From Pseudomonas folii (lineage in GTDB: Bacteria > Pseudomonadota > Gammaproteobacteria > Pseudomonadales > Pseudomonadaceae): a stretch of DNA of 64,000 nucleotides. The translations under genes were made by a program, and so were the position numbers. Within the stretch, counting starts at the first letter, position 1, and each line of letters begins with the position of its first letter. Location: NCBI RefSeq assembly GCF_014357575.1, contig NZ_JACONW010000008.1, forward strand, positions 1 to 64,000. Reading direction: 5' to 3'. Below, one piece after another: positions 38,597 to 41,043 of the stretch. The notes below the pieces were generated by a model, which made no database searches, was not told the origin of the DNA, and was given only the letters and a program-made list of their open reading frames with translations.

Positions 38597-39679
38597 TTAC
38601 CTGTAGCGCAATTTGCTTACGGCGTCGCGCAGCAGATGCTCGGTCGAGTCCCATCCCAGGCAGCCATCAGTCACCGAAACCCCGTAACGCATGGATGCGC
38701 TGATCGGCTGGCAGCCTTCAAACAGATGACTTTCGATCATCATGCCGACCAGCGATGAATCGCCTTGCAAGCGCTGCGCGAGCACCTCATTGAACACCTC
38801 GGGCTGACGCAACGGGTCTTTGCCACTGTTCGCATGACTGCAGTCGACCATGATGCGTTCGGCAATTCGCTGTTTCGCAAGGTTCTCGCGTACTTGCGCC
38901 ACGTTCTGACGATCGTAGTTAGGGCCTTTGTGCCCACCGCGCAGCACGATGTGAGTGTCCGGATTGCCCTGGGTTTCGATAATCGCCGGATGACCCTGGC
39001 GATCCATACCGAAATGACGATGCCCATGAGCAGCCGAACGCATGGCGTCACAGGCAATGGCGACGCCGCCGTCAGTCCCGTTCTTGAAGCCCACTGGCAT
39101 GGGCAGGCCGCTGGCCATCTCCCGGTGGATCTGCGACTCGGTGGTGCGAGCGCCGATTGCCACCCAACTGAGCAGGTCATCGAAGTAGCCGGCTGCCATG
39201 GGTTGCAGGATCTCTGTTGCAACAGGCAGTCCCAGGCGAAGCATCTCGCGCATCAGATGACGCGAGAGCGTCAGGCCCGCCGCCATGTCATCACTGCCAT
39301 TGAGTTGCGGATCATAGGCCAGGCCTTTCCAGCCGACCGTGGTACGAGGCTTTTCTACGTAGGCGCGCATCACCAGCAGCATTTGATCGCTGACTTCACC
39401 GGCAAGTGCTGCCAGGCGTTCGGCGTATTCGATCGCTGATTGCGGATCATGGAGGGAGCAGGGGCCTACAACTATCAGCAGGCGGGTGTCTTCGCCATTG
39501 AGGATGGCGCGAACAGCGCGGCGATGCGCGGCGACTTGATCGCTTAAAGCCAGATCCAGAGGCAGTTGGGATTTCAGTTGCAGCGTACTTGGCAGGCGCT
39601 GCGGGGCAGGGATGCTGTCGAGCATGGTCAGGTTGCGGGTCGACAGGTCAGACGGTTTCACGGCGATAGACGAATTCAT
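38597..39679 (-). CDS. aroF: 3-deoxy-7-phosphoheptulonate (DAHP) synthase, class I
   Basis: 360 aa AroFGH-type enzyme condensing PEP and erythrose-4-phosphate, first step of the shikimate pathway. Signature regions: VVGPCSLHDPQSAIEYA near 90-106, MRAYVEKPRTTVGWKG near 123-138, GFKNGTDGG and ..MVDCSHANSGKDP with the metal-binding Cys and His. The ATG at 39679 has GGAAGC upstream; an in-frame start 20 codons earlier is less likely. A leader with two aromatic-rich mini-ORFs and a strong terminator precedes it, so transcription is probably controlled by supply of Tyr/Phe/Trp. Which aromatic acid feedback-inhibits the enzyme cannot be told with certainty; the leader favours Tyr. Confidence 0.93.
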   Translation of the reverse strand: MNSSIAVKPSDLSTRNLTMLDSIPAPQRLPSTLQLKSQLPLDLALSDQVAAHRRAVRAILNGEDTRLLIVVGPCSLHDPQSAIEYAERLAALAGEVSDQMLLVMRAYVEKPRTTVGWKGLAYDPQLNGSDDMAAGLTLSRHLMREMLRLGLPVATEILQPMAAGYFDDLLSWVAIGARTTESQIHREMASGLPMPVGFKNGTDGGVAIACDAMRSAAHGHRHFGMDRQGHPAIIETQGNPDTHIVLRGGHKGPNYDRQNVAQVRENLAKQRIAERIMVDCSHANSGKDPLRQPEVFNEVLAQRLQGDSSLVGMMIESHLFEGCQPISASMRYGVSVTDGCLGWDSTEHLLRDAVSKLRYR

Positions 39680-39720
39680 GGTTCTGCTTCCTGGGCTGGC
39701 GGGGCAGGCCCGCTTGAGCC

Positions 39721-39873
39721 CTACTGGGGTGTTCGACAATTTGCCGGTTGGGCGTTCTGTAATGGGTTGCCACCTGTCAGTGACCGAACGGAGGCGGCTT
39801 GCTGTCCCGAACGGAGGCTGCTAAATCGCCAGGCAGTGCAGATGTCGGAGCGGTAATAGGTGCTGTAGGTCAT
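39721..39873 (-). CDS. Tyr-rich mini-ORF just upstream of aroF
   Basis: 50 codons beginning MTYSTYYRSD, with AGGA eight bases before the ATG: three Tyr codons among the first seven and Trp and Phe at residues 15 and 17. It ends 41 nt before the aroF start. Two direct repeats with the core GCCTCCGTTCGG lie within it. Behind its stop a GC-rich hairpin (GGGCT..GCGGG..CCCGC..AGCCC) ends just ahead of the aroF ribosome site. It could be a second regulatory leader or a coupling peptide; coding is supported only by start signals and composition. Confidence 0.5.
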   Translation of the reverse strand: MTYSTYYRSDICTAWRFSSLRSGQQAASVRSLTGGNPLQNAQPANCRTPQ

Positions 39874-39910
39874 GTCGTAATCCTCGATTCGATTCAATTT
39901 TCAGGGGCGT

Positions 39911-39948
39911 TAAAAAACAAAACCCCCGGTCGGGTAGCCGACCGGGGG
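39911..39948 (-). terminator. strong terminator/attenuator in the aroF leader
   Basis: On the minus strand CCCCCGGTCGG, loop CTAC, CCGACCGGGGG followed by TTTTGTTTTTTA: an 11-bp GC stem with U-run, lying between two leader ORFs and upstream of aroF in the same direction. No gene it could serve as plain terminator lies between it and the leader peptide, which supports an attenuator role. Confidence 0.85.
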
Positions 39949-39997
39949 TAGAGAATTCTCTGGTTGGCGTCCCCTTGATATGGGCGCCGGATGGGTA

Positions 39998-40141
39998 TCA
40001 GGCGCGCCAGTGGCTAAACCAATACCCAAAATAAGAAGTGCTTTGCGGAGCGACGTTTGCTGACTGACCACGCACGGCTGCACGCGCTGCCAGACGATCA
40101 ACGCTGGTCTGCAACAGTAGCTGTGAGGTGGATGGCAACAT
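39998..40141 (-). CDS. aromatic-rich leader peptide of the aroF attenuator
   Basis: 47 codons (ATG at 40141, GGAGA six bases upstream). The last eleven residues contain a run of two Tyr, two Phe and two Trp: Y37, F38, Y40, W41, F42, W45, then a TGA 49 nt before the terminator stem. That is the layout of amino-acid biosynthetic leader peptides, in which a ribosome stalled at scarce aromatic tRNA codons favours an antiterminator. A competing hairpin (GGCGCCC..GGGGACGCC) and a GGGG/CCCC pairing that would take the 5' arm of the terminator are visible in between. Too short for routine gene finders. Confidence 0.7.
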   Translation of the reverse strand: MLPSTSQLLLQTSVDRLAARAAVRGQSANVAPQSTSYFGYWFSHWRA

Positions 40142-40374
40142 GACACGTCTCCGTTAAGTGCAGCGAGCTTACTTCAGCCTTGCGGGCCATTTCAATCAGA
40201 AATATCAATGGCGGCTATAGGCGGATTCAGCGAGATCAGTTGAGGGACTCGCGTTTTTTCGTTCAACGAGTTCGAGACAAGATGTTTAAAACCATAGAGG
40301 AATCGAGAAGATTCCTACGGGCGAGTGTCCATTAATACCGCGTATTCATCTGCATTTTCTGACGCAGAAAAATC

Positions 40375-40608
40375 TCAATCAGCAGCCGCTTCGACCTGAC
40401 GTTGTGGCTCGGCGGGAATGATACCGTCTTTCATGCCCAGTAAAACCGCCACTTTGTGGGCTTCTCCACGCCGACCCTTCTTGCGGCCAGCCAAAACCTG
40501 ATATGTGGTTGCCGGATCAATGCTGTGCTCACGGGCAAACTCTTGAACAGATTTACCTTGATGTTCAAGCCATGCTTTGGCTTGTGCGGCAGTGCGTATT
40601 CCGGGCAT
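40375..40608 (-). CDS. small HTH DNA-binding protein
   Basis: 77 aa with a central helix-turn-helix-like segment (SVQEFAREHSIDPATTYQVLAGRKKGRRGEA.. region, residues 20-50), rich in Lys/Arg, and an acidic tail. Resembles small phage or plasmid-type DNA-binding proteins common in pseudomonads. Divergent from the XRE regulator at 40690 with an 81-bp shared control region, like a cro/cI pair, but no phage structural genes are near. Targets unknown. Confidence 0.75.
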   Translation of the reverse strand: MPGIRTAAQAKAWLEHQGKSVQEFAREHSIDPATTYQVLAGRKKGRRGEAHKVAVLLGMKDGIIPAEPQRQVEAAAD

Positions 40609-40689
40609 AGTTCAAAACCGTTCAAATCAGTTTAATTTAACTCGATTCTACCATTCGTAAGGATGGGGTCAACAGGATTACGCATTCAA

Positions 40690-41043
40690 ATGAGTGGAAT
40701 AGGTTCCCGACTGAGAAAAGAAAGAGAACGCCTGGGTTTATCTCAGCGAGCTTTTGGAGAAATCGGAGGCGTGGAGGCCAACGCTCAGGGCAAATACGAA
40801 AGTGGTGACCGTGCCCCCAAGGCCGATTACCTCGCAGCCATCGCCGCAAAGGGCGTGGATGTATTGTTTGTTCTGACCGGAAGCGCTACGCCTATCCTTG
40901 TCGAAAATCTAAGCAATGCTGAGGAGAAAGTTCTGGGTAGCTACCGTACCCTTACCAAGGAAGATCAGGATGCCATCAGGCGATTGACCATCACCATGGC
41001 TGAGCTGTCAGCTTCATATGCGATCCAGAACAAGGCGCGTTAA
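40690..41043 (+). CDS. XRE family regulator, CI-like
   Basis: 117 aa from the ATG at 40690; a start nine codons upstream is open. N-terminal HTH (about 2-65: SGIGSRLRKERERLGLSQ..) followed by a short helical tail without a peptidase domain, unlike SOS-cleavable repressors. Divergent with the small HTH gene. It ends 111 bp before a strong terminator that isolates gacA. Role unknown; possibly a domesticated phage regulator. Confidence 0.85.
   Translation: MSGIGSRLRKERERLGLSQRAFGEIGGVEANAQGKYESGDRAPKADYLAAIAAKGVDVLFVLTGSATPILVENLSNAEEKVLGSYRTLTKEDQDAIRRLTITMAELSASYAIQNKAR

Follow-up and report, generated by a model that had tools for sequence, protein, structure and literature searches.

The stretch analysed here (the window) comprises positions 1 to 64,000 of the Pseudomonas folii contig NZ_JACONW010000008.1 and carries on its reverse strand aroF, the product of which is assigned to class I DAHP synthase by Pfam (PF00793, E 7e-79) and NCBIfam (NF009395, 525.9 bits against a cut-off of 343). 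The first-pass annotation, made from the letters alone, had placed an aromatic leader peptide and an attenuator upstream of this gene, on the same strand. The parts it named were confirmed. The 47-codon ORF (ORF1) is correctly positioned, starts with ATG and is preceded by GGAG 7 nt upstream, and its residues 37–45 (Y F G Y W F S H W) indeed hold two Tyr, two Phe and two Trp in nine codons. Two further features had gone unmentioned, namely a match to the Rfam family P15 and a second leader ORF (ORF2). The order of elements shown by sequence comparison is a promoter-like block, ORF1, a set of conserved and partly covarying helices, the putative terminator, ORF2 and aroF (Table 1). A second DAHP synthase copy of the same genome, located on contig C18, has no such leader upstream.

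Table 1. Features of the aroF leader region; positions are those of the window.
Feature	Position	Strand	Basis
Promoter-like block: TTGAAA (40190-40195), 18 nt, TAAGCT (40166-40171)	40166-40195	(-)	consensus, 25-locus alignment
ORF1, 47-aa leader peptide, end TSYFGYWFSHWRA; ribosome site GGAG 40149-40152	39998-40141	(-)	reading in relatives
Rfam RF00627 'Pseudomonas sRNA P15'	39923-40040	(-)	covariance model match
Arm 1 GGGTAT, within aromatic cluster; partner arm 3	40022-40027	(-)	alignment
Arm 2 GGCGCGCC, final ORF1 codons; partner arm 4	40001-40008	(-)	alignment
Arm 3 ATACCC, at/after ORF1 stop; partner arm 1	39993-39998	(-)	alignment
Arm 4 GGCGCCC; partner arm 2 or arm 5	39982-39988	(-)	alignment
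Arm 5 GGGGACGCC; partner arm 4, or arm 6 weakly	39966-39974	(-)	alignment
Intrinsic terminator: arms 6 and 7 with U-tract	39912-39949	(-)	scan and alignment
ORF2, second leader ORF, MTYSTYYRSDICTAWRFSSLRSGQQAASVRSLTGGNPLQNAQPANCRTPQ; GAGGA 39881-39885	39721-39873	(-)	reading in relatives
63-nt ORF2 element: TGGCGATTTAGC (39820-39831) and predicted H-type pseudoknot	39769-39831	(-)	alignment
Predicted pseudoknot arms	a 39807-39814, b 39793-39798, c 39784-39791, d 39769-39774	(-)	
GC-rich hairpin between ORF2 stop and aroF ribosome site	39693-39721	(-)	folding against shuffles
aroF, class I DAHP synthase	38597-39679	(-)	profile matches

Related loci were collected in two sets, the best 30 matches, with the window's own locus among them, and the best 80 of 594 named loci from genome contigs. 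The second set is drawn mostly from Pseudomonas and Stutzerimonas, with Halopseudomonas, Salinicola, Halomonas, Chromohalobacter, Cobetia and others. Without L109, which is too short, this leaves 109 loci, the top-scoring among the matches listed. They are not all independent: as some genomes are present twice under different names (e.g. L010/L039 and L026/L063), the number of independent genomes is below 109. In two genomes of the same genus (G014, G027) the sole match, at ~52% identity, was the other DAHP synthase copy. For the first leader, six loci were skipped (L010, L039, L098, L102, L107, L108), as were L002 and L110, which have no scripted ORF1, giving 87 distinct regions. Of these, 51 entered alignment A1, from which the halomonad-type regions except L089 and many near-copies were left out. 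Alignment A2 holds 53 of 54 distinct ORF2 elements, L098 being omitted for a 3-base insert.

An ORF1-type peptide is present in all 109 loci, from Pseudomonas to the halomonads. A strict script that included the terminator recovered 100 of them, and nine were recognised by eye; in these nine (four Salinicola, five Halomonas) the peptide is present, and the U-tract behind the terminator-like hairpin is weak and interrupted. The aromatic run, the loss of which in relatives would have counted against attenuation, is thus retained throughout. The peptides end in FYFGYWFSHWRA, YFFYGYWFSQRRA or YYFGYWFSRRRA in pseudomonads and in GYWYWFIAGVP or FFGYGYWFRTGVP in halomonads. The exact core TAYTGGTTY is held by 106 loci, in 100 of which it is in frame with a start and a ribosome site. 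When the cores of ORF1 and ORF2 were sought in the present genome, TGGCGATTTASC was found to occur once and TAYTGGTTTAGC twice, the other copy lying within a coding-looking stretch (by eye) without a leader.

The composition of the cluster bears out the proposed mixing of all three aromatic acids, as Phe, Tyr and Trp replace one another. Counted from the stop in 107 loci, position −12 is F in 59, Y in 20 and W in 8, position −11 is Y in 63, F in 29 and W in 4, and position −10 is F in 67 and Y in 22, followed by Y at −8 (93), W at −7 (83) and F at −6 (83); because the stop served as the anchor of these counts, loci in which it is shifted are not in register. The expectation of synonymous-only change in the aromatic codons failed, the changes being mostly swaps of one aromatic residue for another. 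The codons themselves are strongly biased. Over 91 loci, 202 of the 217 Tyr codons of ORF1 are TAT and 224 of its 271 Phe codons are TTT, the corresponding figures for aroF being 68 of 535 and 17 of 451. We read this bias as selection either for slower codons or for A+U-rich RNA, two alternatives that the data cannot tell apart. Among loci the N-terminal part of ORF1 varies freely in both length and sequence, as expected if only the frame and the final cluster matter, and its substitutions are spread over the three codon positions (0.31/0.35/0.35) with no third-position excess; the frame is kept, the amino acids are not. Frame conservation and the ribosome site point to ORF1 as a translated leader ORF rich in pathway codons.

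An alignment of 25 of the 109 loci, chosen for diversity, revealed the consensus TTGAA-N17/18-TAAG(C)T some 50 nt ahead of ORF1, with departures in several loci (e.g. TTGC or TATGGT). In the window this promoter-like block (40195-40166) would put the transcription start near 40159, i.e. upstream of ORF1 and not downstream of the terminator, where a start would have been at odds with attenuation. A sigma-70 promoter scan did not list the block at 40166-40195.

The GC stem and U-run proposed earlier as terminator were recovered 48 nt past the ORF1 stop, as a stem at 39949-39922 (-) of 12 pairs, 10 of them G-C, with a loop of 4 and the tail TTTGTTTTTT. A terminator scan of the region found 3 terminator-like sites against 3.0 in shuffles, so the scan by itself is no proof of a terminator; conservation is, as the script recovers an intrinsic terminator downstream of the leader ORF and ahead of the structural gene in 100 of 109 loci. 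The fold of the 251-nt leader is 4.4 sd below dinucleotide shuffles, none of 200 shuffles being as good. Seven arms are visible in the 51 aligned leaders, arm 5 with the consensus GGG(N)CGCC. Across these 51 sequences the helices 1:3, 4:5 and 6:7, which together make up the terminated fold, have 98.2% of cells paired, and changes on both sides of a pair occur in 5 pairs and 12 cells, compared to shuffle means of 0.8 and 1.0. One of the five pairs is in helix 1:3, where two loci combine arm 1 GGTTAT with arm 3 ATAACC, and four are in the terminator, whereas none is in 4:5. Two of the three helices of the terminated fold, 1:3 and the terminator, hence covary.

Helix 4:5 and the alternative helix 2:4 are mutually exclusive. 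In a single fixed-register test neither 2:4 nor 5:6 gave covariation, so the covariation anticipated for the stems was found in 1:3 and the terminator and was absent from these two. As the register of 2:4 shifts in some clades, an arm-swap test was used, chosen after the negative single-register result. In halomonads helix 2:4 is kept with a different sequence; arms 2 and 4 of this type reach −29.7 kcal/mol when paired together, compared to −10.2 to −16.5 kcal/mol when combined with arms from other clades, a preference that comes with longer stretches too. There was no clear own-partner preference for 2:4 in the other clades or for helices 4:5 and 1:3. The competing hairpin and the GGGG/CCCC pairing (39971-39974 with 39944-39948) suggested by the first-pass annotation are present; the GGGG/CCCC antiterminator forms the weakest part of its proposal. 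In 25 chosen loci the 5:6 stretch averages −5.5 kcal/mol against −25.8 kcal/mol for the terminator; helix 5:6 is seen in most of the 25 folds, weak and without covariation. Being that much weaker than the terminator, it would have to act in the brief time before arm 7 is made, and the step from a free arm 5 to read-through is the weakest of the switch.

The influence of a translating ribosome was modelled by folding RNA that ends just before arm 7 with the ribosome footprint barred from pairing. Averaged over 88 pseudomonad-type loci, the predicted probability of helix 4:5 is 0.70 without a ribosome and 0.75–0.82 with the A site on the last five codons. It falls to 0.19–0.36 with the A site on codons −12 to −7 (in the common form F Y F G Y W), bounded by 0.55 at codon −13 and 0.59 at −6, and over codons −12 to −7 the probability of helix 5:6 increases from 0.02–0.05 to 0.15–0.20. 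Once the A site reaches the stop codon, 4:5 drops to 0.41, which implies that the ribosome must leave the stop for 4:5 to form fully. When 26 chosen loci were folded with three footprint sizes, the scaled score of 2:4 went from 0.24–0.33 to ~1.1–1.2 on most of the cluster and was 0–0.18 beyond. Helix 2:4 supplants 4:5 over about the same codons, the exact codons moving by one or two with footprint size; with the largest footprint 4:5 also falls (0.25) at the last A-site position tested, without 2:4. In this model, both the 88-locus average and the 26 chosen loci show a ribosome-dependent choice of exclusive helices. Twelve loci shown singly give a more varied picture: the switch is clear in L001, L007 and L071, L023 switches but reaches a 4:5 probability of only 0.33 when free, L068 switches partially, L089 is erratic, L030 and L088 show little and L096 hardly any change, and no switch was found in L004, L101 and L103. 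Thus, the three typical halomonads shown (L096, L101, L103) do not fit the switch model.

A leader model searched against 194 genomes of the order gave 25 matches at E<=0.001, 18 of them at E<1e-6. Thirteen of these 18 were read, and a DAHP synthase frame lies downstream in every one, including L149, which lacks a scripted aromatic ORF and nevertheless has a YWF core there. It is also found downstream in L152 (E 4.8e-5), while the weaker matches L155 and L159 show neither the core nor a DAHP synthase frame. Among 20 extra upstream stretches, comprising the C18 copy and 19 from other families of the order, a similar aromatic ORF was found in L115 (WWFGYGFYFSQ) and L122 (FFFGYYFSQ), and an aromatic ORF without resemblance in L123. 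L115 and L122 represent two other families of the order, and the ORF in L115 spans ~335 to 200 bases before the DAHP synthase match.

The window scores 131.4 bits over the full covariance model of RF00627 (gathering threshold 70) and is a member of the P15 family, which was reportedly first described by Livny et al. in 2006. The Rfam model starts inside ORF1 and stops short of ORF2, and its consensus fold, with helices 1:3, 4:5 and 6:7, is the same terminated fold as found here; Rfam types the family as Gene, not Cis-reg, i.e. as an RNA gene where we see a leader. P15 most plausibly represents the terminated form of the aroF leader, leader peptide included. The earlier statement that such leaders are not standard annotation needs correction in two respects: the spot is not unannotated, as Rfam calls it sRNA P15, and a leader peptide for a DAHP synthase is reported in Corynebacterium in the part of PMC11802643 covered here. 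In the literature searched, which left most subscription papers outside, no paper on P15 as an attenuator was found, nor, among the titles matched for leader peptides, any concerning Pseudomonas DAHP synthase. The P. aeruginosa transcriptome study PMC3460626, in the part covered, makes no mention of P15.

Two other explanations of the conserved RNA have to be weighed against attenuation. P15 could be a trans-acting sRNA with its own targets, in which the ORF is incidental. The Rfam type Gene would fit, and a stable terminated RNA, ~250 nt long if counted from the predicted start, would arise either way. Still, this is very unlikely, considering the in-frame cluster with its interchangeable F/Y/W and TAT/TTT bias, the DAHP synthase downstream in 13 of 13 loci read at E<1e-6, and the predicted loss of helix 4:5 on the aromatic codons in the pseudomonad average. 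Besides the leader function, P15 may have an additional role in trans. A metabolite riboswitch, suggested by a conserved, structured 5' leader with a terminator at its end, is hardly credible. Among Rfam matches to E 1 no riboswitch family, and hence no known aptamer, was matched, P15 being accompanied by just weak sub-threshold matches (e.g. His_leader, 20.5 bits); moreover, a riboswitch would leave the ORF and its codon bias unexplained, and this candidate was rejected.

The aroF leader is thus very probably a transcription attenuator of the trp/phe/his class, operated by the translating ribosome, and the terminator is followed by a second translated leader ORF. The trp/phe-type reading of the first-pass annotation is in this respect supported, and its observation goes beyond chance. 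With ample charged aromatic tRNAs, the ribosome would clear the cluster and leave, arms 1:3 and 4:5 would form, and with them the terminator, releasing the short leader RNA P15. When any of the aromatic tRNAs is short, the ribosome would halt on the cluster and cover arm 1, so that arm 2 could pair with arm 4; arm 5, once freed, might then pair with arm 6 before arm 7 is made, and RNA polymerase would read on. ORF2 would be translated on the read-through RNA.

The E. coli trpL and pheL attenuators resemble this arrangement in their pathway-codon leader ORF, competing hairpins and intrinsic terminator, and each of them serves a single amino acid. A precedent for DAHP synthase is AroR from the leader of the aroF operon in Corynebacterium glutamicum, a leader peptide with Phe-Tyr-Phe that, according to the part of the review PMC11802643 covered here, controls aroF by attenuation, credited there to Neshat et al. 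2014; the AroR leader is predicted in PMC4046766, likewise covered in part. AroR shares with the present case leader-peptide attenuation of a DAHP synthase gene and Phe-Tyr-Phe in the peptide, whereas it belongs to another phylum, has no Trp named and responds to Phe, not Tyr (same part of PMC11802643). A second leader ORF is not mentioned in the covered parts of PMC11802643 and PMC4046766. DAHP synthase control in E. coli is described in the former as relying on TyrR and TrpR, not on attenuation. The first leader is accordingly a known kind of device at a place for which no earlier report was found, and it explains P15: an orphan catalogued sRNA gains a concrete job. Through a single sensor that answers to all three aromatic amino acids, pseudomonads could in this way govern entry to the shikimate pathway, and the leader is of relevance to the metabolic engineering of aromatics in P. 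putida.

The second leader ORF, located between terminator and aroF, is the surprising part, by virtue of a fixed core and a likely pseudoknot. A search by DNA motif, not by an amino-acid rule, found TGGCG(A/C)TTTA(G/C)(C/T) in 105 of 109 loci, and in all 105 it is in frame with an ATG and a ribosome site; the four loci without ORF2 are all Salinicola. The core TGGCGATTTA(G/C)C, encoding Trp-Arg(CGA)-Phe(TTT)-Ser/Thr, is kept near letter-for-letter from Pseudomonas to halomonads. In 104 scripted ORFs the codons are TGG (104), CGA (103) and TTT (104), followed by AGC, AGT or ACC; the script demanded W/Y, R, F and S/T, which partly predetermines the amino acids but not the codons. The share of aromatic codons is 30% ahead of the Trp and 0.5% past the core, and the third-position share of changes is raised, to 0.41 before the core and 0.44 in the 63-nt element. 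In L100 (Cobetia) the WRFS core sits inside GYWRWRFSG, with an extra Trp-Arg ahead. Within the wider sample the motif occurs in 8 of 14 loci with a DAHP synthase downstream and was not seen in the other 6 (L142, L143, L145, L147, L149, L152); ORF1 can be present without ORF2, which makes the two separable. A model of the 63-nt element matched 5 of the same 194 genomes, and the motif was found in none of the 20 extra upstream stretches (the C18 copy and 19 other-family loci). By its conservation ORF2 is real; its function is putative.

In 54 distinct sequences, of the fluorescens/putida type and from halomonads, the motif is followed without gaps by two interleaved helices, with one 3-base insert further on. 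These helices have 93.0% of cells paired in 53 sequences, but shuffles reach 91.2%. The outer pair 18-48 is CG in 44, GU in 6, AU in 1 and UA in 1, while the inner pair 21-45 is mismatched in 41 of 53. Cells changed on both sides number 9 against a shuffle mean of 2.6, and pairs with double changes 2 against 1.6. Sliding the partners by +3 gives 13 double-changed cells and a covariation of 0.113 versus 0.075, at 61.7% paired. We consider the pseudoknot likely and moderately supported. Pairing begins eight bases past the TTT codon, a spacing at which pseudoknots halt ribosomes. The 24 loci of the aeruginosa/stutzeri type have a short ORF2 without the pseudoknot stretch, which L067 lacks as well.

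The relation of ORF2 to aroF differs between clades. In seven loci of the halomonad type the end of ORF2 overlaps the aroF start or lies no more than 7 bases from it, whereas in most pseudomonads 37-50 bases separate the two, with a GC-rich hairpin in the gap (mean z −2.3 relative to mononucleotide shuffles; of 79 distinct non-halomonad sequences, 46 are below −2). Control of the aroF ribosome site by ribosomes on ORF2 was considered and rejected, since the predicted access to that site is flat in three clades whatever the ribosome position on ORF2 (24 of 68 long-type, 24 of 24 short-type and 11 of 12 halomonad-type loci). Programmed frameshifting is ruled out by the reading frames, as the frame of ORF2 relative to aroF varies among loci and the −1 frame stops at once at TTTAG. 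Base-pairing partners were also sought for GTCGAACACC and for TGGCGATTTAGC of ORF2, and none consistent across clades was found from 420 bases before to 160 after the ORF2 stop. By eye, the 3' half of ORF2 (e.g. 39721-39770 (-)) looks C/A-rich and G/U-poor in many fluorescens-type loci, a composition that Rho loading sites share.

Most likely, if with little direct support, the aromatic-rich start and the fixed core before the pseudoknot would serve ribosome pausing in a second, translational or Rho-linked layer of control. A bolder proposal, which we offer as a speculation with some chance of being right, is that ORF2 is a new amino-acid sensor, an arresting uORF that gates AroF translation or Rho termination by aromatic supply. 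Arrest would then result from the nascent Tyr-rich Trp-Arg-Phe peptide together with slow CGA/TTT codons and the pseudoknot. If so, DAHP synthase would be under two different leader-peptide sensors in series, a first that is transcriptional and tRNA-based and a second that acts on read-through messages. Two short ORFs per leader, as here, are known from the Salmonella mgtCBR tandem attenuators (PMC3641672) and the two leader peptides of ermB (PMC8274638), neither of which concerns amino-acid biosynthesis.

ORF2 might instead encode a small functional protein, possibly a partner of AroF. Its ~50 codons and good ribosome site, the conserved start and the CRTPQ C-terminus of fluorescens-type loci, together with its position adjoining aroF (touching or overlapping in some halomonads) and the raised third-position share (0.41, 0.44), are what a protein-coding gene might show. 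We regard this as unlikely given that the length goes down to ~29 codons with only WRF and RT kept, that protein function does not demand the retained wobble positions of the core (CGA 103/104, TTT 104/104), and that aromatic codons are so unevenly placed around it. Alternatively, TGGCGATTTA(G/C)C could be the site of a DNA- or RNA-binding protein and ORF2 a by-product. That the motif is in frame with an ATG and a ribosome site in 105 of 105 loci, behind a Tyr-rich start, makes this rather improbable, even if the core is near-invariant in nucleotides, is single-copy in this genome and has no conserved base-pairing partner among those sought. Under the preferred reading of ORF2 as a regulatory leader, its core, conserved between Pseudomonas and halomonads, constitutes a testable target for new translational control.

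Further upstream, between the aroF leader and a response regulator gene, sits a divergent pair composed of a 77-aa frame without a Pfam match at 40375-40608 (-) and a helix-turn-helix regulator at 40663-41043 (+). A helix-turn-helix frame that by eye resembles the latter is found in L112 near base 2030.
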